DNA of 64,000 bases from Rhizobium brockwellii. Its GTDB lineage: Bacteria; Pseudomonadota; Alphaproteobacteria; Rhizobiales; Rhizobiaceae. The stretch lies in contig NZ_CP053439.1 in the NCBI RefSeq assembly GCF_000769405.2, positions 124,001 to 188,000 on the forward strand, in the 5' to 3' direction. This document shows, piece after piece, positions 1 to 57,291 of this stretch (positions are counted from its first letter, which is position 1; the number at the start of each line of letters is the position of its first letter). The notes beneath the pieces are model-generated. The model ran no database searches and had not been told where the DNA came from. It saw nothing but the letters and a program-made list of their open reading frames with translations. A program made the translations under genes and the position numbers.

Positions 1-1706
1 TCATCCATTGTCCGCGGCTCCGGCAGATGGCCGGACAGGCCGCGGATCAGCTTGTCATTGCCATCAGTTGCCTTCTGATGGTGGAAGACACCGTTCGATT
101 GCGGCGTCAGCGGCGCATCGTGCACGCTTTCTTCGATCGTCGCCCAGGCCGGCGGCGCCTGCCAGCCGAATTCAGAGCAGAAGCGTGGGATATAATTGCG
201 GTAGACCTCGTAGCCGACATCGTTCCACACGTCCCAGATATGTTTGCAGCCATGGCCGTCGGCATTGGGTTCGATCTCCATCGAGCCAGAATAGGGACTG
301 CCGGGATAATAGGGACGGTCCGGATCGAGTTCGGCTGAGAGTTTCGGCAGCAGGTCGAGATAATAACCGAGGCCCCAGCTTTCGCCCGCCTTGATGATCG
401 GCCGCCAGCCCCATTCGTCGAAGCCCCAGATATTCTCATTATTGCCGTTCCAGAGCACCAGCGAGGCATGCGGCATCAGCCGCACGACATTGTCACGCAC
501 CTCCGCCTCGACCTCGCTTCTGAGCGGCTCTTCCTCCGGATAGGCGGCGCAGGCAAAGAGGAAATCCTGCCAGACCAGCATGCCCATGCGGTCGCAGGCC
601 TCATAGAATTCGTCGGTCTCGAAGATGCCGCCGCCCCAGACGCGCAGCATGTGGATATTGGCGGCCTTTGCCTCCTCGATCCGCGCGGCATAACGCTCGG
701 CCGTCACCCGCGGGGGAAAACAATCGTCGGGAATCCAGTTCGCCCCACAGATGAAGAGCGGTACGTCGTTGATGACGAAGGTAAAGGCCGAGCCGTGCTC
801 GTCGGCCGAGGTATCGAGCCGCAGCGAGCGGAACCCGAGTTCGCGCTCGTGAGCGTCGAGCAGATCGTCGCTCCCATCGCCGATCAGCCGGAGCGTCATC
901 GGATAGAGCGGCTGCGCGCCGAGATGGTGCGGCCACCAGAGCTGCGGCGAGGCGAGGGCAAGCTCGAAGGAAACCTCGTCTTCGTCGGCGGCGATCACCA
1001 CCGTCTTGGTCACGCCGCCGATTTCGGCAATGAGCCTCAACGGCGTCGTGTCACCATGCCGCGCCAGCCTGGCATCCACTTTTATCAGCCCGTCGCCGCC
1101 GGCAAGCGTCGCGGAAACCCTGGTTTCGGCAAGCCGCGCCCGATCCCAGCTTTCCAGCCGGACCGGCTTCCAGACGCCTGCCGTCACCAGCGTCGGCCCC
1201 CAGTCCCAGCCGAAATTGCAGGCCATCTTGCGCAACAGATTGCCCGGTCCCGGATAGTTGTTAGGACGGTAGCCGTAATGTTTTTCCATCTCCGCGCCAT
1301 AGGCGTAGGCGGAGCGAAAGGTGACAGAAAGGTCGTTGGCGCCAACCTTCAGCAGCCGGGAAACATCGAAACGATAGGTGCGGTGCATGTTGAAGGTGCG
1401 GCCGATCTCTTCGCCGTTGAGCGATATCACCGCGACCGTATCGAGCCCGTCGAAGACGAGTTCCTGCACCTTGCCATCACCAGGCATCGCCTCGAAGCTG
1501 CAGCGATAGGTCCAGTCGGTTTTGCCGATCCAGTCGTTGGTGATCTCATTGACGTCGATATAAGGATCGGGGATGAGCCGGTTGGCGAGAAGGTCGAGAT
1601 GCACGCAGCCCGGCACCGTCGCGGGGATGGCGGCAGGCAGGCCGAGCCTTTCTGTATCGTTACAGGAGAGCGTCCAGCCGGAATTGAGCGCAGTCTTTTC
1701 GATCAT
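1..1706 (-). CDS. Beta-mannosidase, glycoside hydrolase family 2 (C-terminus beyond window)
   Basis: Retaining exo-beta-mannosidase that releases mannose from the non-reducing end of beta-mannosides. Read on the minus strand from ATG at 1706 (AGGAG a few bases upstream), the frame stays open to base 1. The N-terminal part is a GH2 sugar-binding/jelly-roll domain (DWIGKTDWTYRC, FDGLDTVAVISLNG). The catalytic barrel contains LVLWNGNNEN, which carries the acid/base Glu, and further on FCSEFGWQ, which carries the nucleophile Glu. About 568 codons are visible; family members run to about 820, so roughly 250 residues are missing. No signal peptide is seen, so it is probably cytoplasmic and would act on imported mannosides. 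The active-site strings favour beta-mannosidase over beta-galactosidase or glucuronidase. Confidence 0.9.
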   Translation of the reverse strand, partial: MIEKTALNSGWTLSCNDTERLGLPAAIPATVPGCVHLDLLANRLIPDPYIDVNEITNDWIGKTDWTYRCSFEAMPGDGKVQELVFDGLDTVAVISLNGEEIGRTFNMHRTYRFDVSRLLKVGANDLSVTFRSAYAYGAEMEKHYGYRPNNYPGPGNLLRKMACNFGWDWGPTLVTAGVWKPVRLESWDRARLAETRVSATLAGGDGLIKVDARLARHGDTTPLRLIAEIGGVTKTVVIAADEDEVSFELALASPQLWWPHHLGAQPLYPMTLRLIGDGSDDLLDAHERELGFRSLRLDTSADEHGSAFTFVINDVPLFICGANWIPDDCFPPRVTAERYAARIEEAKAANIHMLRVWGGGIFETDEFYEACDRMGMLVWQDFLFACAAYPEEEPLRSEVEAEVRDNVVRLMPHASLVLWNGNNENIWGFDEWGWRPIIKAGESWGLGYYLDLLPKLSAELDPDRPYYPGSPYSGSMEIEPNADGHGCKHIWDVWNDVGYEVYRNYIPRFCSEFGWQAPPAWATIEESVHDAPLTPQSNGVFHHQKATDGNDKLIRGLSGHLPEPRTMD

Positions 1707-1787
1707 GGCGGGCTCCTGTTGCATGCCGCTTGAAGCTGTGGGATTATCTGTGGTTTGGAACGTACCGGTGGTTCGGCATGGGATGCG

Positions 1788-2183
1788 TCAGAGAAACCGG
1801 CCGTGGCGCTGCAGCACCTCGATCTTGTAGCCATCCGGATCGCTGATGAAGAAGAAGAGACCGAAGAGCTTGTCGTCGCGGTTGAGCTCGACCAGTTCAC
1901 CCGGATTGAGCCCGAGCGTGGACAGCCGCTCTCGCTCGACCGCCACCTCTTCGACCGAGACGGCAAGATGGCCATAGGCATTGCCGAGGTCATAGGGCGC
2001 GGTCCGGCCCTTGTTGACGGTTAGTTCCAGCTCAAAGCCGGTCTCGGCATTGCTCATATAGATCAGGGTGAAGGTTTCGAAATCGACGCGGTCGGCGACC
2101 GAAAGGCCGAAGGCCCTCTCGTAGAATTCGACGGAGCGCGCCTCATCGAAAACGCGGATCATGGAGTGGATCATCTTCGCCAA
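1788..2183 (-). CDS. VOC-superfamily protein, glyoxalase I-like
   Basis: 131-residue single-domain vicinal-oxygen-chelate protein. It begins MAKMIHSMIRVFD and contains SVEFYERAFGL and, near the end, FFISDPDGYKIEVLQ. These are the usual beta-alpha-beta-beta-beta modules of the glyoxalase/bleomycin-resistance fold. Metal-ligand positions resemble glyoxalase I: a His near the start, a Glu in the ELELT strand, a His in YGHLAVSV and a Glu in IEVLQ. Lactoylglutathione lyase activity is therefore possible, but the family also includes dioxygenases and epimerases. It lies between the beta-mannosidase and the osmoprotectant transporter, both on the same strand, with 48 bases to the transporter's last gene, so read-through from that operon is possible. 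Family assignment is firm; the substrate is not. Confidence 0.8.
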   Translation of the reverse strand: MAKMIHSMIRVFDEARSVEFYERAFGLSVADRVDFETFTLIYMSNAETGFELELTVNKGRTAPYDLGNAYGHLAVSVEEVAVERERLSTLGLNPGELVELNRDDKLFGLFFFISDPDGYKIEVLQRHGRFL

Positions 2184-2231
2184 GTCTGCCTCCCATTATC
2201 ATCAATTACGGCAGTCTTGGTACCCGTCCTT

Positions 2232-2981
2232 TTACGCCGCGCGCAAGCCGATTCTTCGCGTAATCGCCGCTTCGACGAGGCCCATGGCGTCATAGATCAG
2301 CACCGCCATCAGGCCGACGATCAGGCCGCCCTGCAGGATGAAGGCGGTATTGTCGGAGATCAGCCCGGCGATGATGACCTCGCCGAGACCCTTGGCCGCA
2401 ACCGTCGAGCCGATCGTCGCCGTGCCGATATTGATGACGGTGGCGACCTTCAGCCCTTCGAGGATCAGCGGCAGGGCCAGCGGCAGCTCGACGCGAAACA
2501 GCCGCTGCGTGCCGTTCATGCCCATGCCGTCGGCGGCATCGAGCACTTGTGGCGAAACCTGCTTCAGCCCGGCGACGGTGTTTTCGAAGATCGGCAGCAG
2601 GCCGTAGAGAAAGAGCGCGATCAGCGTCGGCATGGCGCCGAAACCGGTGGCGGGAACGGCGAGCGCCAGCACCGCGACCGGCGGAAACGTCTGCCCGGCA
2701 TTGGCGATGGCGCGCGACAGCGGCAGAAAGTCAGCCCCGCTTTCCCGTGTCACGAAGATGCCGCCGACAACGGCAAGCACGGCGCTACAGACGATCGAGC
2801 CGATCACCAACTGCAGATGCCCGACAGCAAGCGAGGCAAGGCTGTTTTGCGTATAGACGGGAGGTGCATTGTTGCTGGTCAGCGGCATTAGCATGAAGGA
2901 AAGCCACTCCGTCCTGAACAGCAGGATCAGGAGCAGGGCGAGCGCCGCCAGGCGGAAGAGATTGGCGACGAGGAGCTTCAT
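2232..2981 (-). CDS. ABC transporter permease, YehW/OpuCD type
   Basis: 249-residue inner-membrane permease of a quaternary-amine (glycine betaine/choline/carnitine) ABC importer. It has about six hydrophobic segments and the EAA-type loop (VLDAADGMGMNGTQRLFRVELPLALPLI) that docks on the ATPase. Its length matches E. coli YehW (about 243). Its start ATG overlaps the stop of the ATPase gene by four bases (ATGA), so it is translationally coupled as the last gene of the four-gene operon 6085-2232. It would pair with the longer permease at 3919-5094 to form the heterodimeric channel. Confidence 0.88.
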   Translation of the reverse strand: MKLLVANLFRLAALALLLILLFRTEWLSFMLMPLTSNNAPPVYTQNSLASLAVGHLQLVIGSIVCSAVLAVVGGIFVTRESGADFLPLSRAIANAGQTFPPVAVLALAVPATGFGAMPTLIALFLYGLLPIFENTVAGLKQVSPQVLDAADGMGMNGTQRLFRVELPLALPLILEGLKVATVINIGTATIGSTVAAKGLGEVIIAGLISDNTAFILQGGLIVGLMAVLIYDAMGLVEAAITRRIGLRAA

Positions 2982-3922
2982 GCCTTGCGGCCCAGTTCGA
3001 GAAGCCGCGTCATCGAGATCGATCCCACAGGCGCCTTTTCGCCGTCCTGCACGGCCGCCTCATCGACCCCCTGCCAGATCATCTCGGCCAGCGCATCGCG
3101 CAGGCTGAGCGACTGCGGCAGGGCATAGGCGAGGCCATTCTTGGCCGGCTCCATGCTCTCCTTCAGCGGCAGCAGCGACATCAGCTTCAAGGCCCGGTCG
3201 GACGTCCCGGTTAATTGCTGGACGAAGGGATCGGCGGGTTCGGTGAGGATCTTTTCCGGCGTCGAGCATTGCAGCAACCTACCCTCGCTCATCACCGCGA
3301 TCTGGTTGCCGAGATGGAAGGCCTCATCCATGTCGTGGGTGACGAGAATGACAGTCGTGCCGAACTGCTTCTGGATCGCCAAGAGATCGTCTTGCGCCTT
3401 GCCGCGGATGACCGGATCGAGCGCGCCGAAGGGTTCGTCCATCAACAGCAGCTCCGGTTCGGCGGCCAGCGCCCGGGCGACGCCGACGCGCTGCTGCTGG
3501 CCGCCGGAGAGCTGATGCGGATATTTGTCGGCAAAGGTTGCCGGATCGAGGTTGAAGAGCCCGAGCAGTTCCTCGACGCGTTTGGCGATGCGGGCGGAAT
3601 CCCAATCGAGAAGCTGCGGCACGGTGGCGATATTCTGCGCCACGGTCCGGTGCGGAAAGAGGCCGTGCCCCTGGATCGCATAGCCGATCTTGCGGCGAAG
3701 CTCGGTCACCTCAACGTCCATCACATTCTGCCCGCCGACGAAGATTTCGCCTTCGGTGATCGACACCAGCCGGTTGATCATCCGCATCAGCGTCGATTTG
3801 CCCGAGCCCGACGTGCCGACGATGACGGTGATCTCGCCCTTCTCGACGCTCATCGAGACGTCGTCGACGACGGTGGCGGCGCCATAGCGCTTGGTGACGT
3901 TCCTGATCTCGATCATGGTCAT
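2978..3922 (-). CDS. ABC transporter ATP-binding protein, YehX/OpuCA type
   Basis: 314-residue ATPase energising the quaternary-amine importer. Walker A is GTSGSGKST, the signature LSGGQQQR, Walker B LLLMDEPFGALD and the H-loop VTHDMDEA. After the nucleotide-binding domain (about 1-240) a C-terminal tail of some 75 residues follows; it is too short and divergent for a clear CBS pair. I chose ATG at 3922 over the ATG two codons later (3916) because it makes an ATGA overlap with the upstream permease stop. The 3' end overlaps the next permease the same way. In another reading this frame runs on upstream as a long open frame into the permease; that part is a shadow. Confidence 0.9.
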   Translation of the reverse strand: MTMIEIRNVTKRYGAATVVDDVSMSVEKGEITVIVGTSGSGKSTLMRMINRLVSITEGEIFVGGQNVMDVEVTELRRKIGYAIQGHGLFPHRTVAQNIATVPQLLDWDSARIAKRVEELLGLFNLDPATFADKYPHQLSGGQQQRVGVARALAAEPELLLMDEPFGALDPVIRGKAQDDLLAIQKQFGTTVILVTHDMDEAFHLGNQIAVMSEGRLLQCSTPEKILTEPADPFVQQLTGTSDRALKLMSLLPLKESMEPAKNGLAYALPQSLSLRDALAEMIWQGVDEAAVQDGEKAPVGSISMTRLLELGRKA

Positions 3923-47586: not shown

Positions 47587-47660
47587 GCGGGTGTAGCTCA
47601 ATGGTAGAGCAGCAGCTTCCCAAGCTGAATACGAGGGTTCGATTCCCTTCACCCGCTCCA
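47587..47660 (+). tRNA. tRNA-Gly (anticodon CCC)
   Basis: 74-base cloverleaf: acceptor GCGGGTG / CACCCGC, discriminator T and encoded CCA, anticodon stem CAGCT / AGCTG around TCCCA (anticodon CCC, reads GGG) and T-arm GAGGG-TTCGATT-CCCTT. Its 3' end recurs at 56953-56980, which marks the tRNA as the integration site of an island. Confidence 0.95.
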
Positions 47661-47866
47661 GCTATTCATCCATCGATATTAGATAACGGCGGCTGGCGAC
47701 CCAGTTAAGCCAAGGCTTTCCAGTTTTTCTTATGTTTCCGGCAGAACTTGCTGGGGACCGGTGAAAGCTGGTCCCCATCGACTTTCGGAGAAGCAAGCTG
47801 CAACTCGCTGTGCTTGAACGAGTTGGAAACCTTCGGCACTACCTCACTTCGGCAGTTGAGATTTAC

Positions 47867-48010
47867 ACGCCGACCAAGACCTAATCCCCGAAAAACCGGA
47901 TCTGCTTGTACCGACGATGCGCGATGGTCACGCTCCTGTCGGGCCAGATGATATAGGCTTCCTCCACGTGCCGGCGCTATTAGTCGATGAAATCATGCGG
48001 AAAGGCCGAG
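47867..48010 (-). pseudogene. Decayed copy 1 of the small lipoprotein gene
   Basis: About 145 bases matching the 3' half and flank of the intact gene at 57013-57291: shared CACGCCGACCA and CTAATCCCCGAA before the stop, and CGATGAAATCATGCGG at the far end. The reading frame is broken and the 5' half with the lipobox is absent. The rest of the 460-base gap (47661-48121) shows no gene; a GGGGACC / GGTCCCC hairpin lies near 47755-47780. Confidence 0.75.
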
Positions 48011-48121
48011 CGTTGCGGCCCTTGTAGCCGGCATCGGCGACGATACGGGAAAGCGTTGCAACACATTGTCCGATGCAGCGTGCCGGCTTAAGGATGCGCC
48101 CGGTCATTCCGGGGAAGAACG

Positions 48122-48817
48122 ATGGACGGCAAATTCGAAAGTTACGATGCTGAACAGCGGGCCATGATAGATTGGTTGACCGGCCGGTCCCCCGATGCTC
48201 GTCATGCTATTGCGCAAGATCTGAACTTCGACTTCGCTGAAGATGTGTTCGAGTGGATCCTGACGCAGCCGGACTGCGATCTGGCAACTGCCGCAAGCTA
48301 TTTCTGGCGGACAGAACCTTTCGACCTTCTCGAAAATTCTGCCTACAGGAGCGAAGACAGCATGACGGTGCAGCGGCTGATAGACCGCGTCAATGCGGGT
48401 TTTTATAGCCGGTCGGAGATTTTTTATGGCGGGCAGGAGCCGCGAGAAGGCGAAGAGGTGGACAGCTCGACACTTGAAGAAGCCGAACTGCTTCGAGAGT
48501 TTGCGCACGACCATAAGGCTTCCAATCTTCCCTGGACTTTACCTGAGGCGTTAGTGCCGCCGTTTGGGCATCGCGCAGTTCGCATCTCGGATGAAGAAGA
48601 TCCCGATAAATCGGAAGAGCTCAGAAAGCTCTTTGCCGGGCTCGGGACAGGTTCCGGACTAATTCCAGCAGAAGCGATGGGGGCGGATCAGCCTCCAGGA
48701 AAGATGCCGCAGCCGGCGCAACAATTCACCGTCGGAAAAAAGCAGCAGCGTCGAGCAGGTCGCCTTTCACGCCGTTCTACCTTTACATCGCATTCGTTGC
48801 GGCGGGATGGGGATTGA
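48122..48817 (+). CDS. DUF4274-like protein, possible immunity protein, 3' end perhaps frameshifted
   Basis: 231-residue cytoplasmic protein. The N-terminal part (DAEQRAMIDWLTGRSPDARH, FAEDVFEWILTQPDCDLATA, ASYFWRTEPFDLL) resembles DUF4274, a domain found in immunity and toxin-associated proteins. After residue about 200 the sequence turns into a basic low-complexity tail. In the +1 frame beyond a run of six A (about 48736-48741) a hydrophobic stretch FYLYIAFVAAGWGLSYVF opens, which looks like a membrane segment. The gene may therefore be frameshifted, or the A-run a programmed slip site. Codon use and lower GC suggest transfer. Confidence 0.6.
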   Translation: MDGKFESYDAEQRAMIDWLTGRSPDARHAIAQDLNFDFAEDVFEWILTQPDCDLATAASYFWRTEPFDLLENSAYRSEDSMTVQRLIDRVNAGFYSRSEIFYGGQEPREGEEVDSSTLEEAELLREFAHDHKASNLPWTLPEALVPPFGHRAVRISDEEDPDKSEELRKLFAGLGTGSGLIPAEAMGADQPPGKMPQPAQQFTVGKKQQRRAGRLSRRSTFTSHSLRRDGD

Positions 48818-48912
48818 GCTACGTCTTCGACCCTCCCAGGCACGTATATACGGTGATGCTCTGTTGCTGTCTCGGGTTCGCCCGCGCCACGTTCACGCAA
48901 GTGCGATTTGGA

Positions 48913-49596
48913 ATGAAAGAGAAGGCTGACAAACGAGTGCAGACAGTCTCAATGGAGAGAAGCGTGGGTACCGCCAGGGTGAAGCCTCAAGGAATTTACA
49001 TACTCGATTCAAATGAAAATTATGGCTGGGAGTTCGCGAACCGGAAGAGGCTGCAGCCAGATAGCGGCCGCCTCGGCCTTAATCACTTGGGCGTTCCGTG
49101 GCCGAGTAGCATGCTCGATTTGCCGCGTGGCCCGTGGCGAATACCGGACTATGCCGAAACGCCAAAGCTGATATTTGATCCGAAGCGAAAGGTGCAAGAC
49201 ATTTATGCGGTAGAGTATTTCCTCTTCATCTCCGACAAAATGAAGAGCTTGCTTGAGGAATTTGCTCCAATGTCATGCGAATATCTGCTTTGCGAGACCG
49301 AGTTTTCGAATGGAAAAGCCGGCCCGAGAATCTGGCAGTGCAGCGTTGTCGATTCATACCGCAAGGCAGTGGATGTCGAGAGTTCCCCCTTAATTCGCGT
49401 CACTCAATGGGGCGGCTATATGATATCGGGCGGAGCTGACTGGCATTTTCTGCCTGATGTCCTCAAGGGCACGCAGCTCTTCCGCCTGGTTGAGTATGCG
49501 GGGTCAATTTTTTGCGATCAAACATTCAAGGACCTTTGCAAAGACAGAGGTATTAAAGGCACCTCTTTCCAACAGGTCGGCTTTTTACCGAAATAG
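48913..49596 (+). CDS. Imm11/DUF1629-like immunity protein
   Basis: 227-residue protein from ATG 48913. The blocks GIYILDSNENYGWEFANRKR, PKLIFDPKRKVQDIYAVEYF, LFISDKMKSLLEEFAPMSCE, RVTQWGGYMISGGADWHFLP and QLFRLVEYAGSIFCDQTFKD resemble the DUF1629/Imm11-type immunity proteins of contact-dependent or polymorphic toxin systems. The frame is open upstream to 48814 and beyond; the start could also be ATG 48952. No toxin gene is next to it, so it may be an orphan immunity gene. Lower GC than its neighbours. Confidence 0.65.
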   Translation: MKEKADKRVQTVSMERSVGTARVKPQGIYILDSNENYGWEFANRKRLQPDSGRLGLNHLGVPWPSSMLDLPRGPWRIPDYAETPKLIFDPKRKVQDIYAVEYFLFISDKMKSLLEEFAPMSCEYLLCETEFSNGKAGPRIWQCSVVDSYRKAVDVESSPLIRVTQWGGYMISGGADWHFLPDVLKGTQLFRLVEYAGSIFCDQTFKDLCKDRGIKGTSFQQVGFLPK

Positions 49597-49601
49597 GGGC
49601 C

Positions 49602-49808
49602 TCAAACCCCGAAAAACCGGATCGGCTTGTAACGGCGATGCGCGATGATCAGGCTTCTGTCGGGCTGGATGATGTAGGTTTCCTCCACCTGCTGGCCGTA
49701 TTGATCGATGAAATCATGCGGAAGGCGGAACCAACCGGTGATTTGGTCAGTTTGGTGCGCGGCTGGCTATAGGTCATGCTTCCAGGGATGGGCTCGAGGC
49801 CGGGGCCG
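49602..49808 (-). pseudogene. Decayed copy 2 of the small lipoprotein gene
   Basis: About 207 bases matching the intact gene at 57013-57291 from GPGLEPIPGS through KLTKSPVGSAF, then out of frame (a frameshift near 49727) but still alignable to the stop. The signal peptide and lipobox are missing. It sits just after the Imm11-like gene on the opposite strand. Confidence 0.8.
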
Positions 49809-49927
49809 TCCGTTCGCCGCCTTTTGAAGGCGCTTCGTGATCTTTTATGAAAAGGGTTGCGCGCAGGCATCGGCTCCTACAAGGAAACAGATGGCGCCTC
49901 GGCCGCGCGCAACCCCTAGCTTCGCCT
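49809..49927. repeat. Long inverted repeat downstream of the DUF995 gene
   Basis: GGGTTGCGCGC (49854-49864) and GCGCGCAACCC (49905-49915) are perfect 11-bp arms separated by 40 bases, ending 12 bases from the DUF995 stop. It may act as the operon's transcript end. The rest of the gap shows nothing further. Confidence 0.6.
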
Positions 49928-50437
49928 TTATTTGGTCTTACTGACGCTCGTCTCAATCCTCCCCAATTGAGAGCTCACGTAGTCGCCATGGCGAAGCTTA
50001 GCGAATTCGTCGGTGGCTTGTGCCGGTGCGCTCTTGAAAACGTACCATTCACCGTCCGGTTCGCGTTTCTGATAGATCAGGCCGCCCTTCTTGCGGTGGC
50101 TGAAGCAGGTGATTGCTGTCGCCGTTCCGGTCTTGGCGTGCCAGTCGGCGTTGAAGCAGAGTTTACCCGTCTCCGTGATGAACCAGCGGCCCATGCCGAA
50201 GGACGGCGAGCCATTTTCCTGCGACCAGGCGGTAAAGCGACGCGCCTTTGCGGAGAAGTAGCCGGCGCCGGCTTTCCACATCCAGGAATTCTGGTTGTAG
50301 AGCCGATAGATTTCCGCGCTGCTCATCGGCTTTGCGGTCTCGATCCCCGCAGGCTCATTGGTTCCGGAAGCCGACGCGGCCGTGGCGATACCGCTGGTCA
50401 GGGCCACGGCCAGGAACATTTTTTGAAGCATGGACAT
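49928..50437 (-). CDS. DUF995-family secreted protein
   Basis: 169-residue exported protein. The signal peptide is MSMLQKMFLAVALTSGIATA, cut near ASA. The mature part (MSSAEIYRLYNQNSWMWKAG, AGYFSAKARRFTAWSQ, WFITETGKLCFNADWHAKTG, TCFSHRKKGGLIYQKREPDG, EWYVFKSAP) is the DUF995 pattern, common in rhizobia and of unknown function. Last gene of the polysaccharide operon, 18 bases after the GH26-like gene, so it may help polymer export or modification. Confidence 0.8.
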   Translation of the reverse strand: MSMLQKMFLAVALTSGIATAASASGTNEPAGIETAKPMSSAEIYRLYNQNSWMWKAGAGYFSAKARRFTAWSQENGSPSFGMGRWFITETGKLCFNADWHAKTGTATAITCFSHRKKGGLIYQKREPDGEWYVFKSAPAQATDEFAKLRHGDYVSSQLGRIETSVSKTK

Positions 50438-50455
50438 GTTCAGGTTCCTTCTTGT

Positions 50456-51415
50456 TCAATTGATGCTTTCGCGGACGACCCGCCAGTCGGGGCGGCCATA
50501 GCCGTCCGGCCACGGATAGACTTCACGGTCGTTGAAGTAGATAACGGCGCTGAGCGCCGGGAACTGGGGATAGCGTTTCGTTACGCTCTCAGCCCAGTTT
50601 CGCACGAAGGAATCGCCGCCTTCGTAGCCGAGTTCGGCAACCATAATGGGCTTGCCGTAAGCGGCGACACGGGCGTATCCGGGCGCAAGGTGCTCGGCAA
50701 ACGTCTGGTCACGGCCAGTCTTGTCCCTGTCGTATTGCTCCAGGCCAAAGACCGAGAGCCCGATGAGATCGACGACATCGTTGCCGGGATAAAAGGCTTG
50801 AAGCCCCTCATTGCCCTTCGGTGACCACATGTATTTGGCCGTCTTCAGGTGGACCTTGCAGACCTCCACCATCCGGCGATAGGCCTTGGCATAATCGTCG
50901 CCCTGCCAATGCGACCAGGAGAACTGGCTGTCGGTTTCGTCCATTTCCTGTCCCCAGCGAACGATGACCGGACTTTTCAGCTTGGCAGCAGTCGAGCAGA
51001 CGGCGGCCATGTTCGCATCGCGCGAACCGTTGAGGATGCTGTGCAGCAGTTCCTGCGAGGTTTGGCGCGAACCGGTCGACCAGGTCCAGGGCTCGACCGA
51101 GATCAGCAGGGTGCGGCCACGCGCTTGCGCATAATCATCGGCGAGGGCGAGCGTGCCCAGATCGACATCTTCCCAGGGCAGGAAGAGGTGTTCGATCTTC
51201 GAATCGGGCGAGGCGCCCAAATCTCCGTGCGGATCATAGGCGCCGAACGTGATCGACTCCTTCGTGACGACCGGCATTTTGGTCGGCGGCGCAATGGACG
51301 ATGTCGTCAGCGGCTGCCCTTCGGCAAAGCTGCCCAGAGCGGTCGGCAGGACCGCGACTCCCGACAGCAACAGGCCGGTTAACGACAACAGGGCTATTTT
51401 GGATGGGCTATGCAT
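50456..51415 (-). CDS. GH26-like secreted glycoside hydrolase
   Basis: 319-residue protein with an N-terminal signal/anchor (KIALLSLTGLLLSGVAVLPT). The TIM-barrel strings FLPWEDVDLGTLALADDYAQ, LLISVEPWTW, VIVRWGQEMDE, WSPKGNEGLQAFYPGNDVVD, LIGLSVFGLEQY and PIMVAELGYEGG resemble GH26 beta-mannanase/endoglucanase, with candidate catalytic Glu in GQEMDE and AELGYE. I chose ATG 51415, which has GGAGGAAATAC upstream and overlaps the GT2 stop by eight bases. In this operon it probably trims or releases the polymer made by the GT2 synthase. Confidence 0.82.
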   Translation of the reverse strand: MHSPSKIALLSLTGLLLSGVAVLPTALGSFAEGQPLTTSSIAPPTKMPVVTKESITFGAYDPHGDLGASPDSKIEHLFLPWEDVDLGTLALADDYAQARGRTLLISVEPWTWSTGSRQTSQELLHSILNGSRDANMAAVCSTAAKLKSPVIVRWGQEMDETDSQFSWSHWQGDDYAKAYRRMVEVCKVHLKTAKYMWSPKGNEGLQAFYPGNDVVDLIGLSVFGLEQYDRDKTGRDQTFAEHLAPGYARVAAYGKPIMVAELGYEGGDSFVRNWAESVTKRYPQFPALSAVIYFNDREVYPWPDGYGRPDWRVVRESIN

Positions 51416-53315
51416 TGTGTATTTCCTCCACGCTCGGCCGCACATCCGGGTGAGCGGCATCCGTTCTCAGTTGGATCTCCTCCGGATCGGAAATCCATCG
51501 TGGTTTGAAGAAGATCGTGCGCAGCGCGGTCCCGCCCCGGCCTGCACCGGAGGCGGCGTAGCGCTCTTCGAACAGCTGAAGGCGGCCGCTGCCCCAGGCG
51601 AGTGCCTCGGTCGCATCCTTTCCGCGCATGACGGTTGCAACCCCCGGCAGCGCGACGAGCGCAAGAAGCACGGTCGCCATCGCCGGACGGTAGAAACGCG
51701 GGGCCGCCGCAACAGTATTTTCCTTCGAATGGCGCCCGACGATGACCAAAAGCAGCGCGCAGTAGATTGCCGCGTTCAGAATGGTAAAGAAGTAACCACC
51801 CTTGGAGGCGCCGGCATCGCCGATTGCCAGCGCAGGCAATACCGCCATCAGCGCCAGCAAACCGTAGGGCGCCAGGACACGCACCGGCAGCAGATCGACT
51901 TCGGACCGCCCTTTCGGCGTGACGCGGAAATCGACGAAGGAGCCTGTCACAAAATCGTGCACCGCCGCCAGCGTGCCGGCGAGCGCCCAGGGCCAGCGCG
52001 CGAAGAGAAAGAGCATGCATTCCCAGCTCAGGATCTTGGCGTCGTAGGGGCGAAACGAGCTGCTGGCGCGCCAGCGATAGGCCATGACCACGAGAGCGAT
52101 AGAAAGCGGTGCGAAATGCGCCAGGAAATCGGGATAGGTCACCGTCACGAAGTTCTGGCCGCGCACGAGCGCGATGATCGGCAGCGCAAACATGAGCAAC
52201 ATAAAGAACGCAAAAAGCGGATACCAGAGTTGCGAAAAGAGGAACTGGAACTTGAGCCGGGGCGGCAGCCGGCCGACGAGGCTCGGCGAGTACCGCAACA
52301 GCACCATGACCAGGCTGCGCGACCACTGGAATTCCTGCGTCACGAGGTCGCTGAAGGTTCTGGGGCCGTCACCATGGGCGATGGCATCCAGCGCATGCAC
52401 CCCCCGCCAGCCATCGGCATTCATCATCAATGTCGTCGAATGGTCTTCAGCCAACTCCGGACCGAGGCCGCCGATCTGTTTGAGGGCGACGGTACGCACC
52501 GCGTAATGCGACCCTATGCACATCGGCGCCAGGCCGCCATTGTAACCGGCTTGGAGCGAGCCATGCATGCTGGCCTCGGCATAGAGCCTTCCACGTGCCG
52601 ACCAGCTTTCGGAAGCGTTCTTGTCGCAAATGCTGGGGGCCGAGACATAGCCGACCTTTGGATCGGCGAACGGACGCAGCATCTGGAAAAGATAGTCGGG
52701 CGCGGGAACATGATCCGCATCGAGTTGCGCCACGAAATCGTAGCGGCTGTAGCCGTAGTGATCGTAGAAGAAGGCGAGGTTGCCTTCCTTGCACCGCGTG
52801 CGTCGGGGCCACGACGTCCGATGATAATCGGATCGCCCCTTGCGGGTCGAGACGAGGACCCCGTGACGGGAGCACCAGTCGAGAGTCTCGGGGGAAGGGT
52901 CTTCGTCGGCAAGCCAGGTGTCGTGTTCCACCTCCTGGGCAAGCATCGCCAGCAGGGTTTCACTGACGACCGAGAAGGGTTCGGCCGGCGCCTTGGTCAC
53001 GACCATGGCCACTCGACTGCCCGCCGGCAGGCGCAAGGGACCGTTCGGTCTTGCCGCCCGATAGAAGACGACGATGAAATAGGCCGGCAGAGCGGTAACC
53101 CAGGCAAGAACGAGGCTCACCGTAATTGTGCCGAAAGCATCGACGTGATGGCGCGGCTCCAGCCACCAGATCCAGAAATAGGCGAAGGCGCAGGCCCATA
53201 CGGCCGCCGAGAACAGATATTCGGTCCGCCGATGTCCGGTCAGAACCGGGACAAGAAGCGGCTCGTGGGAGGGTTCCGGAGCATGCGTCGCTTGGATAAT
53301 CGCAAGTTCGGTCAC
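51408..53315 (-). CDS. Membrane polysaccharide synthase, GT2 family (cellulose synthase-like)
   Basis: 635-residue inner-membrane glycosyltransferase. Two TM segments near the start (FSAAVWACAFAYFWIWWLEP; ITVSLVLAWVTALPAYFIVV) precede the GT-A domain, with DADHVP as the DxD site, the acidic LAEDHSTTL motif and EFQWSRSLVMVLLRYSPSLV as the Q-x-x-RW-like motif. Further TM helices follow (LWYPLFAFFMLLMFALPIIA, GLLALMAVLPALAIGD). It would polymerise and extrude a glycan from nucleotide sugars made by the two upstream genes. The Q(Q/R)xRW motif is altered to QWSRS, so the substrate may differ from UDP-glucose. Confidence 0.87.
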   Translation of the reverse strand: MTELAIIQATHAPEPSHEPLLVPVLTGHRRTEYLFSAAVWACAFAYFWIWWLEPRHHVDAFGTITVSLVLAWVTALPAYFIVVFYRAARPNGPLRLPAGSRVAMVVTKAPAEPFSVVSETLLAMLAQEVEHDTWLADEDPSPETLDWCSRHGVLVSTRKGRSDYHRTSWPRRTRCKEGNLAFFYDHYGYSRYDFVAQLDADHVPAPDYLFQMLRPFADPKVGYVSAPSICDKNASESWSARGRLYAEASMHGSLQAGYNGGLAPMCIGSHYAVRTVALKQIGGLGPELAEDHSTTLMMNADGWRGVHALDAIAHGDGPRTFSDLVTQEFQWSRSLVMVLLRYSPSLVGRLPPRLKFQFLFSQLWYPLFAFFMLLMFALPIIALVRGQNFVTVTYPDFLAHFAPLSIALVVMAYRWRASSSFRPYDAKILSWECMLFLFARWPWALAGTLAAVHDFVTGSFVDFRVTPKGRSEVDLLPVRVLAPYGLLALMAVLPALAIGDAGASKGGYFFTILNAAIYCALLLVIVGRHSKENTVAAAPRFYRPAMATVLLALVALPGVATVMRGKDATEALAWGSGRLQLFEERYAASGAGRGGTALRTIFFKPRWISDPEEIQLRTDAAHPDVRPSVEEIHNA

Positions 53316-54298
53316 GCGCGCGCCTCCAGTCCGAAGAACGGAGCCGCCGTCCGCACGATGGTTTCGAGGTCGGAATATCGAGGCTGGAAGCAGAGCGTCT
53401 CGCGGGCCAGGCTGGCGTCGGCGTAGAGGCTGGGCGGATCGCCCGGCCGGCGTGGATGAATGACGACCGGGACTTCGCAGCCGGTCGTTTCCTGGATCAC
53501 GCGCAGCACGTCCCTGATGGAAAACCCCCGCCCCGTGCCGAGGTTGACAGCGAGATTTGCTCCGCCTTTGGTGAGATGGGTGAAGGCCTGAACATGGGCA
53601 CGCGCCAGATCTGCGACGTGAATATAGTCCCTTATGCAGGTGCCGTCAGGGGTGTCGTAATCATCGCCGAATATCTCCAGGTGCGGAATCCGGCCGGCCG
53701 CGGCCAGCAGCGCCCGCGGAATGAGATGGGTTTCCGGAACGTGCCATTCGCCAAGCTCGCCGTCCGGATCGGCTCCACAGGCATTGAAGTAACGCAGGGC
53801 AACATACCGCAGGCCGTAGGCCGCCGCATAATCGGCGAGCATATGCTCGAAGATCAGCTTGGTCTTGCCGTAGGGATTGATCGGAGCCTTCGGCAACGTC
53901 TCATCGATCGGCAGCACGGAAGGGACGCCGTAGACGGCACAGCTCGATGAGAAGATGACGTTTTGAAGCCCCGTCTGCCGGCAGGCATCGATAAGCGACA
54001 ATGCACCGCAGACATTGTTATTGTAATATTTCGCCGGGTTTTCCACGGACTCGCCGACGTAGGCCGAGGCGGCAAAGTGGATGACGGCATCGGGAGCATA
54101 TTTCTCGATGACCTCGATCAGGCATGACGTGTCGAGGACGTCACCTTCGACGAAAGGCCCCCAGCGCACGGACGAACGGTTTCCGGTCGTGAGATTGTCG
54201 TAGACGACAGGCTCAATCCCCTCCGAGCGGAGGAGCTTGGCCGTGTGGCTGCCGATATAGCCGGCACCGCCCGTGACCAGGACCCGGGGCGCATCCAT
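53312..54298 (-). CDS. UDP-sugar 4-epimerase (GalE-like; probably UDP-xylose 4-epimerase)
   Basis: 328-residue extended SDR. NAD site GGAGYIGSHTAKLL, SSSCAVYG with catalytic Ser, and YGKTK as YxxxK. Sequence alone reads as GalE, but its partner is a UDP-xylose synthase, so it more likely makes UDP-arabinose from UDP-xylose, as Uxe proteins do in S. meliloti. It overlaps the GT2 gene by four bases and the uxs gene by one base (TGATG), so the operon is tightly coupled. Confidence 0.85.
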   Translation of the reverse strand: MDAPRVLVTGGAGYIGSHTAKLLRSEGIEPVVYDNLTTGNRSSVRWGPFVEGDVLDTSCLIEVIEKYAPDAVIHFAASAYVGESVENPAKYYNNNVCGALSLIDACRQTGLQNVIFSSSCAVYGVPSVLPIDETLPKAPINPYGKTKLIFEHMLADYAAAYGLRYVALRYFNACGADPDGELGEWHVPETHLIPRALLAAAGRIPHLEIFGDDYDTPDGTCIRDYIHVADLARAHVQAFTHLTKGGANLAVNLGTGRGFSIRDVLRVIQETTGCEVPVVIHPRRPGDPPSLYADASLARETLCFQPRYSDLETIVRTAAPFFGLEARA

Positions 54299-55344
54299 CA
54301 GACCGCCTCCAGCTCGCGTGCCGGACGGGTGAGAACGCCATCGAAATAGTCGATCGTCTGACGCAGGCCGCTCGACAAGTCGATCTTCGGCCGCCAGTCG
54401 AGTTCCTGCATGGCAAGCGAAATATCGGGGCGACGCTGACGGGGATCGTCAACCGGCAGAGCGCGATGGATGATTTGCGACCGGGAACCGGTCAATGCGA
54501 TCACCTGCTCGGCCAGCTCCCGGATCGTGAATTCGCCCGGATTGCCGAGATTGACGGGCCCCGTCAGCGACGACGGCGAGGCCATCATGCGGACCATGCC
54601 GCCGATGAGATCATCGACGAAACAGAACGAGCGGGTCTGGGAACCGTCGCCATATATCGTGATGTCTTGCCCCGTCAGGGCCTGGACGATGAAATTCGAG
54701 ACGACGCGGCCGTCGTCCGGACGCATCCGCGGGCCGTAGGTGTTGAAGATGCGGATGATCTTGATCTCGACGCCGTGCGTGTTGTGGAAGTCGAAGAACA
54801 GCGTCTCGGCGCACCGCTTGCCCTCGTCATAGCAGGAGCGCGGCCCGAACGAATTGACGTTGCCCCAGTAGCTTTCGACCTGCGGGTGGACGTTCGGGTC
54901 GCCGTAGACTTCGGAGGTGGATGCCTGAAGGATGCGTGCGCCGGTGCGCGCGGCCAGCTCCAGAAGGTTGAGGGAGCCCAGCACGCAGGTCTTTGTCGTA
55001 TGGATCGGATCGGCCTGATAATGCGGGGGCGATGCCGGGCAGGCGAGGTTATAGATCTCGTCGACTTCCAGATCGAGCGGGTGGACGATATCGTGGGCGA
55101 CGACATTGAAGCGATCGACTCGCTTCAGATGGACGATATTGCGCCGCATGCCGGTGGAAAAGTTGTCGAGGCAGATCACCTGGTGTCCGGCGGCCAAAAG
55201 CGTGTCGCACAGATGCGATCCGAGGAAACCCGCACCGCCGGTGACAAGAACTCTCTTGGGAGCGCGAGATATTCCGGATGAATAATTTGTATCACGAGCC
55301 GAAGCTTGTACAGAGCGCGCACGAATCCTGCCAAGATAGTTCAC
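54298..55344 (-). CDS. uxs: UDP-glucuronate decarboxylase (UDP-xylose synthase)
   Basis: 348-residue extended SDR converting UDP-glucuronate to UDP-xylose. NAD site [35 protein letters not shown], the UXS-specific [30 protein letters not shown], catalytic SCYDEGKR (YxxxK) and [20 protein letters not shown]. It is soluble, without the membrane anchor seen in animal forms. First gene of the operon and divergent from the AraC regulator. Confidence 0.9.
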
Positions 55345-55697
55345 GACTACCTCCCGTGTTTTCAGATTTTGCTATGGGATCTTCGATCTTTACTTCGACA
55401 TCTCGCGAAACCAAGTCGTTCGATCATGCGAATATTTTATTCGTCCGGTTTTTCTTTTGGAATGAACCGATGCTTATTTAGATACAGCTAAGAAAGGCAA
55501 TTGTCGTTATCCTCACGTCCTGGAAATTATCGCTCCGTACATTTCAGAGCGAAAAGGTGTATGGTAAACAACTTATGGAGGAGAATCTTCGGGCAATTCC
55601 GCTTTTTCAGACGGAGTTCTGCGGAGATTTCAGCCGCAAAACAATTGCTTTTCTCAATTTCCATGGCTCGGATTGGGTTATGCGCTGGAGGAATTGG
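55345..55697. other. Divergent promoter region uxs/AraC regulator
   Basis: 353 bases, markedly AT-rich around 55370-55470, with no gene. It must hold the promoters of the polysaccharide operon and of the regulator, and probably the regulator's binding site; I could not single out a repeat with confidence. Confidence 0.6.
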
Positions 55698-56846
55698 ATG
55701 GCTAAAGGGTCTGAATCCGACGATGATCCTGCCGCGGAACAGGAACGGCCGGCGCATATGGAGCGGCGGCGCTGGCCGCGTGAACCGGCCATGCGCAAGG
55801 AACGCCCGCCCCACGCCTCCCCTGCACTCGTGCCGCTGCGATTCTCGACGCAGGACCTGCCACCGGCAGAACAATTCCAGGCCTGGCGGGCACATATGGC
55901 GCCGCTCGTGGATGTTCATCTGCCGGAGGGAAAATCACCGGAAGACGGGTTCCTCGCGGAGCAGATCGGCTGGCATCTCGGCGATATCCTGATCGTCCAG
56001 CAGCGCGCGCATGCCCACAGATATGTCCGCGATCAGGCCATGCTTCGATCGAGCCCCATCGACCATTGGAACGTCGGCCTGCAGCGCAGCGGCCAAGCCT
56101 GGACCGAGGTCAACCGTCGTGTCACCGAGACCAGTGCCGGCGAGATACTTTTCATCTCTCTCGGCAGCCCCTATCGCGGACGGATGACCGATACCGAAGC
56201 TTTGCTCGTGTTCCTGCCGTATGAGCTGCTGGCTCGCGATGCGAGCCTTCTCCAGAGCGCCGGCAACACGGTTCTTTCGGGCAGCCACGCCGAGTTGCTC
56301 ACGGGCTATCTCACGGGCCTCGAAACGAACCTCGGGAATCTGACGATAGAGGAAGTGCCCCGGATCATCCAAACCATCGGCGATATGGTCGTTGCGGGCG
56401 CCGCGTCGTCCACAAGGACTGATACAGGTCAAAACCAGACCAACGTGGGACTGATGGAGCGGGCGCACCGCTACATTCACGTCAATCTCCATTCGGAAAA
56501 CTTGACACCGGACATGATGTGCCGCGCGTTGGGGATTTCGCGTACGCGGCTTTACCAGCTGTTTGAGGCGAACGGGGGCGTGCTCAATTATATTCGCAAG
56601 CGGCGATTGCTGCAGGCCTATGCGGATCTCAGCAATTCGGCCGACCACAGGCCGATTTCAGAAATCGCAGAAGCCGCCGGTTTCGAGGTCGCCGCCAATT
56701 TTACGCGCGCCTTCATCCACGAATTCGGGCTGAGCCCGCGTGAAATCCGAAGGACGATGGCAACCCAACAGCGGCCGGCTCCGGCCATCCGCTCGACGCG
56801 GCGTTACGGAAAAACGATCGGTGATTGGCTGGCCCTGACGAGTTGA
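55698..56846 (+). CDS. AraC-family regulator, CuxR-like
   Basis: 382-residue regulator. The N-terminal 40 residues are charged and contain an Arg-rich patch ERRRWPREPAMRKER with an RxxxR spacing (R24/R28). An AraC sensory domain follows (about 45-250: RFSTQDLPPAEQFQAWRAHM, DHWNVGLQRSG), then the double HTH (ENLTPDMMCRALGISRTRLY and RPISEIAEAAGFEVAANFTR, AFIHEFGLSPREIRR). I chose ATG 55698 because TGGAGGAATTGG lies directly before it. Divergent from uxs as cuxR is in S. meliloti, where the protein binds cyclic di-GMP and activates an arabinose-polysaccharide operon. Cyclic di-GMP binding here is inference. Confidence 0.82.
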   Translation: MAKGSESDDDPAAEQERPAHMERRRWPREPAMRKERPPHASPALVPLRFSTQDLPPAEQFQAWRAHMAPLVDVHLPEGKSPEDGFLAEQIGWHLGDILIVQQRAHAHRYVRDQAMLRSSPIDHWNVGLQRSGQAWTEVNRRVTETSAGEILFISLGSPYRGRMTDTEALLVFLPYELLARDASLLQSAGNTVLSGSHAELLTGYLTGLETNLGNLTIEEVPRIIQTIGDMVVAGAASSTRTDTGQNQTNVGLMERAHRYIHVNLHSENLTPDMMCRALGISRTRLYQLFEANGGVLNYIRKRRLLQAYADLSNSADHRPISEIAEAAGFEVAANFTRAFIHEFGLSPREIRRTMATQQRPAPAIRSTRRYGKTIGDWLALTS

Positions 56847-56952
56847 CCCGGCTCGGGCTGAAATCCGGACTCGAAGTCCGTTCAGCGGCGGTCGACGCGC
56901 TTGCCGAAGACACAGCGGACTTGATCCAGACCCATGGCCTCCGTTCGCAATT

Positions 56953-56980
56953 GAGGGAATATTTCCCTTCACCCGCTCCA
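56953..56980 (+). other. att-like partial copy of the tRNA-Gly(CCC) 3' end
   Basis: GAGGG, six divergent bases, then TCCCTTCACCCGCTCCA, the T-arm, acceptor and CCA end of the tRNA at 47587-47660. The same length and order as 47633-47660 argue for an attachment-site duplication and against chance. Confidence 0.75.
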
Positions 56981-57012
56981 TCTCCCGCAAACCACGCCGA
57001 CCAGGAAAGGCT

Positions 57013-57291
57013 CTAATCCCCGAAGAACCGGATCGGCTTGTATTGCCGATGCGCGATGATCAGGCTCCGGTCGGGCTGGATGATGTAGGTTTCTTCCACT
57101 TGCCGGCCGTATTGGTCGATGAAATCATGCGGGAAGGCGGAACCAACCGGCGATTTGGTGAGCTTGGTGCGCGGTTGGCCGCTATAGGTGATGCTTCCCG
57201 GGATGGGTTCGAGGCCCGGGCCGCTGTAGCTGACGGTGTTGCATCCCGCGAGAACGAGCGTGCCGACGAGGCCGATGATTGCAGGTTTCAT
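57013..57291 (-). CDS. Small lipoprotein (intact copy)
   Basis: 92-residue lipoprotein: signal MKPAIIGLVGTLVLAGC with lipobox LAGC, then NTVSYSGPGLEPIPGSITYS, KSPVGSAFPHDFIDQYGRQV, EETYIIQPDRSLIIAHRQYK and a final RFFGD. I chose ATG 57291, which has GGGAGGG at good spacing; ATG 57297 would sit directly on that site. I recognise no family. Two decayed copies lie inside the adjacent island (47867-48010 and 49602-49808), so the locus has been duplicated repeatedly. Confidence 0.75.
   Translation of the reverse strand: MKPAIIGLVGTLVLAGCNTVSYSGPGLEPIPGSITYSGQPRTKLTKSPVGSAFPHDFIDQYGRQVEETYIIQPDRSLIIAHRQYKPIRFFGD

Follow-up and report, generated by a model that had tools for sequence, protein, structure and literature searches.

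An eroded island at tRNA-Gly(CCC) as the probable carrier of an arabinose-containing polysaccharide operon in Rhizobium brockwellii

The arabinose-containing polysaccharide (APS) system of Sinorhizobium meliloti is encoded on the megaplasmid pSymB in the order cuxR, uxs1, uxe, apsS, DUF995, GH26, DUF995. Its activator CuxR binds cyclic di-GMP (c-di-GMP) through an RxxxR motif (PMC9045272, in excerpt), with a value of 6.7 µM in the excerpted text of PMC10519070. Two kinds of tRNA-linked or decayed mobile DNA are also relevant here: the cis-mobilizable element (CIME), defined in an excerpt of PMC5704250, and the tRNA hotspots of S. meliloti (PMC11476347). The present work deals with 64,000 nucleotides of the chromosome of Rhizobium brockwellii (the window; contig NZ_CP053439.1, positions 124,001 to 188,000, which is C1:124001-188000 of genome G000 in our numbering), in which an island at C1:171,560-181,300 carries an APS-type operon next to a tRNA-Gly(CCC) gene. 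An earlier sequence-only reading had taken the tandem of a repeated tRNA end and the DNA enclosed by it for the footprint of site-specific integration. Empty sites in relatives, the uniqueness of the repeat and the end of an integrase island left in one congener support this reading, and we consider it very probable that the locus is the eroded remainder of such an island with the APS operon as its cargo.

The tRNA-Gly(CCC) gene predicted by ARAGORN on the forward strand (47587–47660) is the integration target; similarity to congeners stops at or near its 3′ end, and its last 18 bases constitute the left attachment (att) copy. This sequence, TTCCCTTCACCCGCTCCA, is found at 47643–47660 and again, on the same strand, at 56963–56980, the second copy (attR) having been located by exact-match searches of both the window and the genome. 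None of 100 shuffled versions of the window contained the 18-mer, and the whole 7.1-Mb genome (7 contigs) has only two exact copies, with none for the reversed control, so the chance match at many loci of which the sequence-only reading had warned did not appear. Its count of 23 identical bases out of 28 for the extended repeat was confirmed as well; the distal copy retains the T-arm stem GAGGG to its left (56953–56957), while the loop differs. The repeat does follow the AraC-type gene as stated there, but not immediately, since that gene ends at 56846 and a gap of 116 bp separates the two. To the right of attR stand a spacer (56981–57012), which resembles the tRNA-proximal spacer of some strains lacking any insertion, and an intact gene for a small putative lipoprotein (LP; 57013–57285, reverse strand), in which no Pfam match was found.

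The occupancy of this site was compared across 148 congeneric genomes, our own included. The stretch from dcd to tRNA-Gly is present in all 148, and the listed alignments of the other genomes stop at or before window base 47680, mostly at 47660–47663. The 64 genomes with a usable listed LP match were tabulated, the other 84 standing outside the table: 27 sites are empty, 14 hold the APS operon, 19 hold other insertions and 4 are split between contigs. Among the near congeners (LP at least 84% identical, n = 50) the APS operon lies between tRNA and LP in 14, the site is empty in 17, occupied by other DNA of 428 bp to 34 kb in 16 and split in 3; the corresponding figures for the farther group (n = 14) are 10 empty, 3 with other DNA and 1 split. 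In the empty strains the LP gene begins 9–41 bp 3′ of the tRNA, exactly the adjacency expected by the sequence-only reading for island-free strains, and because empty sites are common in both groups, the tRNA adjoining LP is the older arrangement and LP the original right neighbour of the tRNA. The bases following the distal repeat are similar to the tRNA–LP spacer of the empty strains G030 and G003, not to that of all empty strains. The cuxR gene has a DNA match in 59 of the 148 congeners, but next to tRNA-Gly it was matched in the 14 carriers only, all of them in the near group; the same gene order without the repeat in distant rhizobia, which would have spoken against integration, was thus not encountered.

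A distal direct repeat of the tRNA end and an empty site in relatives, both typical of a tRNA-associated island, are therefore present in the window, whereas an integrase beside the tRNA is absent from it and is found in other occupants (G037, G036 and G104). In G036, full 18-bp att copies flank the operon on both sides (18/18 twice), and in G033 a left copy of 14 nt and a right copy of 18/18 do so; in both genomes more DNA with an integrase-like gene lies between the tRNA and the left att copy, the gene of G033 (locus L042) scoring just below the PF00589 cut-off. G104, which lacks the operon, shows a tyrosine integrase next to the tRNA and, at a distance of 30 kb, a 23-nt repeat immediately ahead of LP. 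In G010 the tRNA is followed by 75 bp that share 92% identity with the left end of the G037 integrase island and 86% with the corresponding end in G036, after which comes the operon; several carriers retain just the first dozen or so (~13) bases of such a left end. The longest right end, that of G029 and G031, consists of ~160 bp similar to the plasmid copies of the operon, then ~80 bp of island end, then the repeat; ~115 bp of this type of right end are missing from the window. Since the left and right remnants vary among the carriers, the two ends of the island were worn down separately. The statement of the sequence-only reading that no integrase remains and that the island is domesticated fits these observations: none of the 7 genomic matches to PF00589 (phage integrase) falls inside the island, both ends are eroded, and the frames are intact. 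The match nearest to the island on the same contig, among those listed, is at C1:1421506. This phage-integrase gene itself lies ~3.3 kb from another tRNA-Gly-like match (C1:1425286) and may mark a further island.

A quite different origin of the locus would be the arrival of the operon by plasmid recombination or transposition, with the repeat being a chance match or an unrelated tRNA fragment. Two plasmid copies of the operon do stand beside recombinase-like (by annotation) or transposase-like (by eye) DNA. We nevertheless find this explanation scarcely credible and reject it on the uniqueness of the 18-mer in the window shuffles and in the genome; the empty sites, the flanking of the operon by two att copies in G036 and G033 and the integrase-island end in G010 speak against it as well.

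The island is thus a decayed tRNA island of a known, CIME-like kind. As in a CIME, attL and attR are kept in the window and integration and transfer genes are lost, though the full right repeat is present in 4 of the 14 carriers, and islands are stacked at the same tRNA in G036, G033 and G037. The truncated copies of the flanking host gene found here (LP′ and LP″, see below) lie outside the CIME description, and the likeness resides in the att copies and the gene loss, while a conjugative ancestor and excision are features of the CIME. For a possible descent from an integrative and conjugative or integrative and mobilizable element, the integrase-island end in G010 is the relevant observation. 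Other islands use the same tRNA-Gly(CCC) site, which recalls the S. meliloti hotspots, where varied islands occupy one tRNA 3′ end, with a direct repeat as their mark; those that the excerpt of PMC11476347 names, however, are tRNA genes 010, 030 and 039, and tRNA-Gly(CCC), gene 009, is not among them. Concerning the contents of these other occupants, G014 (L084, 869–5780) has a TetR regulator and a resistance-nodulation-division (RND) efflux pair (HlyD-type and AcrB-type) beside the tRNA, and L086, L051, L058 and L052 hold genes of similar sizes, recognised by open reading frame size alone. Defence-like genes are seen in integrase islands at L042 (8730–11588), L050 (4649–8020) and L041 (6909–9161), the matches being to HmaC at 1472 bits, to a type IIG restriction enzyme at 1374 bits and to a mad3-like protein.

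The enclosed DNA had been described as an arabinose/xylose-type polysaccharide operon with its regulator plus immunity-like genes, and Pfam searches bear this out and allow the parts to be named: CuxR/APS, DUF4274 and Imm11. By homology, the cargo cuxR-uxs1-uxe-apsS-apsE-apsH2 is the c-di-GMP-activated APS system of S. meliloti. The cuxR gene (55698–56846, forward strand) likely starts at the internal ATG 55698 and not at the GTG 55557; from its Met48 the protein aligns end to end with residues 1–378 of PDB 5nla chain A (E 3.5e-166), which in turn matches the S. meliloti pSymB gene beside uxs1. It is 66% identical to S. meliloti CuxR, retains the motif RRRWPR, of the RxxxR form, and is divergent from uxs1. 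The biosynthetic genes, all on the reverse strand, are uxs1 for UDP-xylose synthase (UDP-glucuronate decarboxylase; 54298–55344, PF01370/PF16363, 82% to the S. meliloti protein), uxe for a UDP-sugar 4-epimerase (53312–54298, PF01370 E 2e-60, 80%), apsS for a membrane glycosyltransferase of family 2 (51408–53315, PF13632 and others, 80%), an apsE-like gene for a GH26-like glycosidase (50456–51424, weak match to PF02156, E 2e-5, 65%) and an apsH2-like gene for a DUF995 protein (49928–50437, PF06191 E 2e-54, 62% to the gene in final position in the S. meliloti operon). The labels apsH1, apsE and apsH2 are given by gene order after the operon named in the excerpted PMC7902896. The divergent cuxR/uxs1 pair, the gene order and the five biosynthetic orthologues (62–82%) are common to both loci; the S. 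meliloti cluster, however, is on a megaplasmid while ours is in a chromosomal tRNA island, and no gene stands here between apsS and apsE, the single DUF995 gene coming after apsE. Since the window holds all the pSymB genes except the first DUF995, the missing gene is apparently apsH1, by position. No in-frame stop codon was flagged among the listed operon frames of the carriers. High c-di-GMP would be expected to lead to APS production; R. favelukesii with such a cluster showed no Congo red phenotype (PMC7902896, in excerpt). A second uxs-uxe-apsS-DUF995-GH26 cluster is present on the same chromosome (C1:4533409-4538584; L002, L004) at ~42–63% protein identity, with no cuxR match within the stretch examined.

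Among the 14 carriers the six operon genes, taken together, have a median synonymous divergence (dS) of 0.068, and the operon value is lower than that of the flanks in 91 of 91 pairs for dcd, in 90 of 91 for LP and in all 76 pairs with data for VOC+mcp, the median flank-to-operon ratios being 3.2, 4.0 and 3.0, respectively. An operon whose synonymous divergence is ~3–4 times below that of its flanks indicates that the block spread between lineages after these had separated. A history of one ancient insertion into the chromosome and purely vertical descent thereafter, with loss of the operon in the operon-free strains, would agree with the single group formed by the chromosomal copies and with the similarity of the bases between repeat and LP in 9 of the 14 carriers. 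It is contradicted by the intact tRNA–spacer–LP empty sites, found in distant congeners too, and above all by the difference in synonymous divergence, on which we reject it as very unlikely; it would need a much lower mutation rate in the operon, whose GC content at third codon positions (0.72–0.76) resembles the value of the VOC gene in the flank (0.75) and is slightly below those of dcd, metZ and mcp (0.82–0.83). Composition alone would miss the operon, because its overall GC of 60.5% is close to the 62.0 and 62.9% of the flanks. The GC comparison proposed in the sequence-only reading would not by itself set the operon apart, although the stretch of DUF4274 (55.6%) and Imm11 (51.4%) does stand out.

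The route of this later spread may have been homologous recombination in the flanks (tRNA and dcd on the left, LP and beyond on the right) after one site-specific insertion, and not renewed integration. The spacer to the right of attR is nearly identical in 9 of the 14 carriers, against ten distinct spacers in empty strains, which favours recombination because excision and reinsertion would not carry the spacer along, and the LP copies offer extra homology. On the other hand, no gradient of divergence outward from the right junction, the mark of such recombination, was seen, LP just past the spacer being already fully diverged, and the common spacer may be an old allele, because the empty G030 and G003 have a similar one. 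The missing gradient decides nothing on the transfer route, and we judge recombination in the flanks to have an even chance of being correct.

Outside the tRNA site the operon was found on another contig in four genomes, and these copies define the edges of the block. They match the window from 49839 (G035 and G030), 49799 (G127) or 49808 (G058) and end at 56852 in three genomes or 56939 in G058, at 94–95% identity and with nothing matching beyond, so that the part in common with plasmid copies may be given as 49809–56939. In PLSDB, 18 plasmid records cover at least 80% of the block at 94–95%, including R. leguminosarum pRlvE, with a recombinase gene and repC nearby, and, from Rhizobium sp. 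C104, a conjugative plasmid. In a tree of 22 rows (14 from chromosomes, 7 from plasmids and 1 Neorhizobium outgroup; 6 of 28 candidate rows were left out as only their cuxR end matched and the operon was absent) a branch separates the 14 chromosomal copies from the rest, and on rooting with Neorhizobium the plasmid copies branch off earlier. The chromosomal copies thus appear, with modest support, to nest among plasmid copies, and transfer from plasmid to chromosome would be the simplest, if tentative, reading of the direction, because the tree has a single distant outgroup.

Several observations weigh against the history of integration and erosion adopted here. The chromosomal group has a support of 73/98 and is recovered in 74% of bootstrap trees, and it depends on that one outgroup. 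A long remnant of the left island end is seen in G010 only, the others having ~13 bp or none; the full 18-bp right repeat is present in only 4 of the 14 carriers, six have a shorter remnant, and in four (G010, G037, G066 and G006) no right repeat is visible. A right repeat was looked for in vain at the 17.5-kb integrase island of G037. A search of the 148 congeners meant to trace the integrase from the right end of the APS-bearing island (~161–242 in G029) gave this stretch in APS carriers only, the other weak rows being tRNA-end or short matches. Finally, dN/dS in the operon, calculated from medians, runs from ~0.11 (uxe) to 0.47 (apsH2), above that of the flanking genes; this is selection for function, looser or more recent.

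Taking these data together, we still favour the following sequence of events. An ancestor of the R. leguminosarum group would have acquired the APS block, of a lineage also present on Rhizobium plasmids, in its chromosome as part of an island which inserted at the 3′ end of tRNA-Gly(CCC) and duplicated the tRNA end. The island's integrase, whose type is inferred, would then have been deleted together with most of the other island DNA, leaving the order tRNA, operon, attR, LP, and the block would later have passed between lineages that had separated before; the additional layer of this strain (DUF4274, Imm11 and truncated LP copies) would have been added between tRNA and operon. To judge from homology, high c-di-GMP would allow CuxR to turn on uxs1-uxe-apsS-apsE-apsH2, and the UDP-xylose and UDP-arabinose made would be polymerised into a secreted adhesive polysaccharide. 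A bolder idea, which we think rather unlikely, is that the att-flanked APS–cuxR block is still a transferable cassette, moved among Rhizobium species by the integrases of stacked islands or by LP homology arms, while the site itself would act as a port through which genes for surface, efflux and defence functions are exchanged.

These results change nothing in what is known of the integration mechanism, the mechanics being standard. They give a surface polysaccharide under c-di-GMP control, hitherto described from the megaplasmid of S. meliloti, a defined insertion site on the chromosome of the R. leguminosarum group; none of the top-ranked search results among openly licensed PMC papers puts the APS cluster beside a tRNA gene in R. 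leguminosarum. Relatives on plasmids, empty sites and intermediates in partial decay can all be observed, which makes the locus a test bed for the domestication of a mobile cassette, and the presence or absence of the adhesion trait in inoculant-type rhizobia should be easy to predict by one polymerase chain reaction across tRNA-Gly(CCC) and LP.

The DNA between the tRNA and the block (47661–49808) lies outside the plasmid-derived part and is a second, accreted layer; the earlier view of the island as one unit must be amended in this respect, while the island at the tRNA repeat stands. In its first part (47661–47880), a blastn search against all the loci compared gave no match for 47661–47814, and 47815–47880 is matched by G037 alone, except for its final bases, which are similar to the tRNA–LP spacer. 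Then come LP″ (47881–48009, reverse strand), a truncated copy of the 3′ 129 bp of LP (repeat family D1, 85% to the intact gene), a gene for a DUF4274 protein (48122–48817, forward; PF14096, E 7e-14), a gene for an immunity-like Imm11-family protein of uncertain start (48814–49596, forward; PF07791, E 3e-25) and LP′ (49602–49808, reverse), a copy of the 3′ ~213 bp of LP recognised by repeat and congener comparison and abutting the left edge of the APS block. Both truncated copies are absent from the sequence-only account. The junction of LP′ with the operon is common to the window, G037, G032 and G065 (4 of 14 carriers), and a short stretch of similar bases can be seen by eye at the joint. G037 has the same left layer at 97%, plus its integrase island between layer and tRNA. 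DNA ending in an LP copy and coming from an APS-free chromosome was probably joined before the operon at least twice.

DUF4274 and Imm11 do not behave as a linked pair, occurring together only in the window and G037; the 12 further genomes with a match have just one of the two genes, each in six genomes. The neighbours of some Imm11 homologues were scanned for a cognate toxin, and the AHH nuclease-domain protein seen at L069 was not tied to the window. At L069 itself (3–3002) the Imm11 homologue lies between the AHH nuclease-domain gene and a DUF4261 gene, and the arrangement looks like a toxin–immunity cluster. More relatives of LP, members of a small family without a Pfam entry, are present in the R. 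brockwellii genome at C2:911254-911408 and C1:231289-231448, with 73–74% identity.

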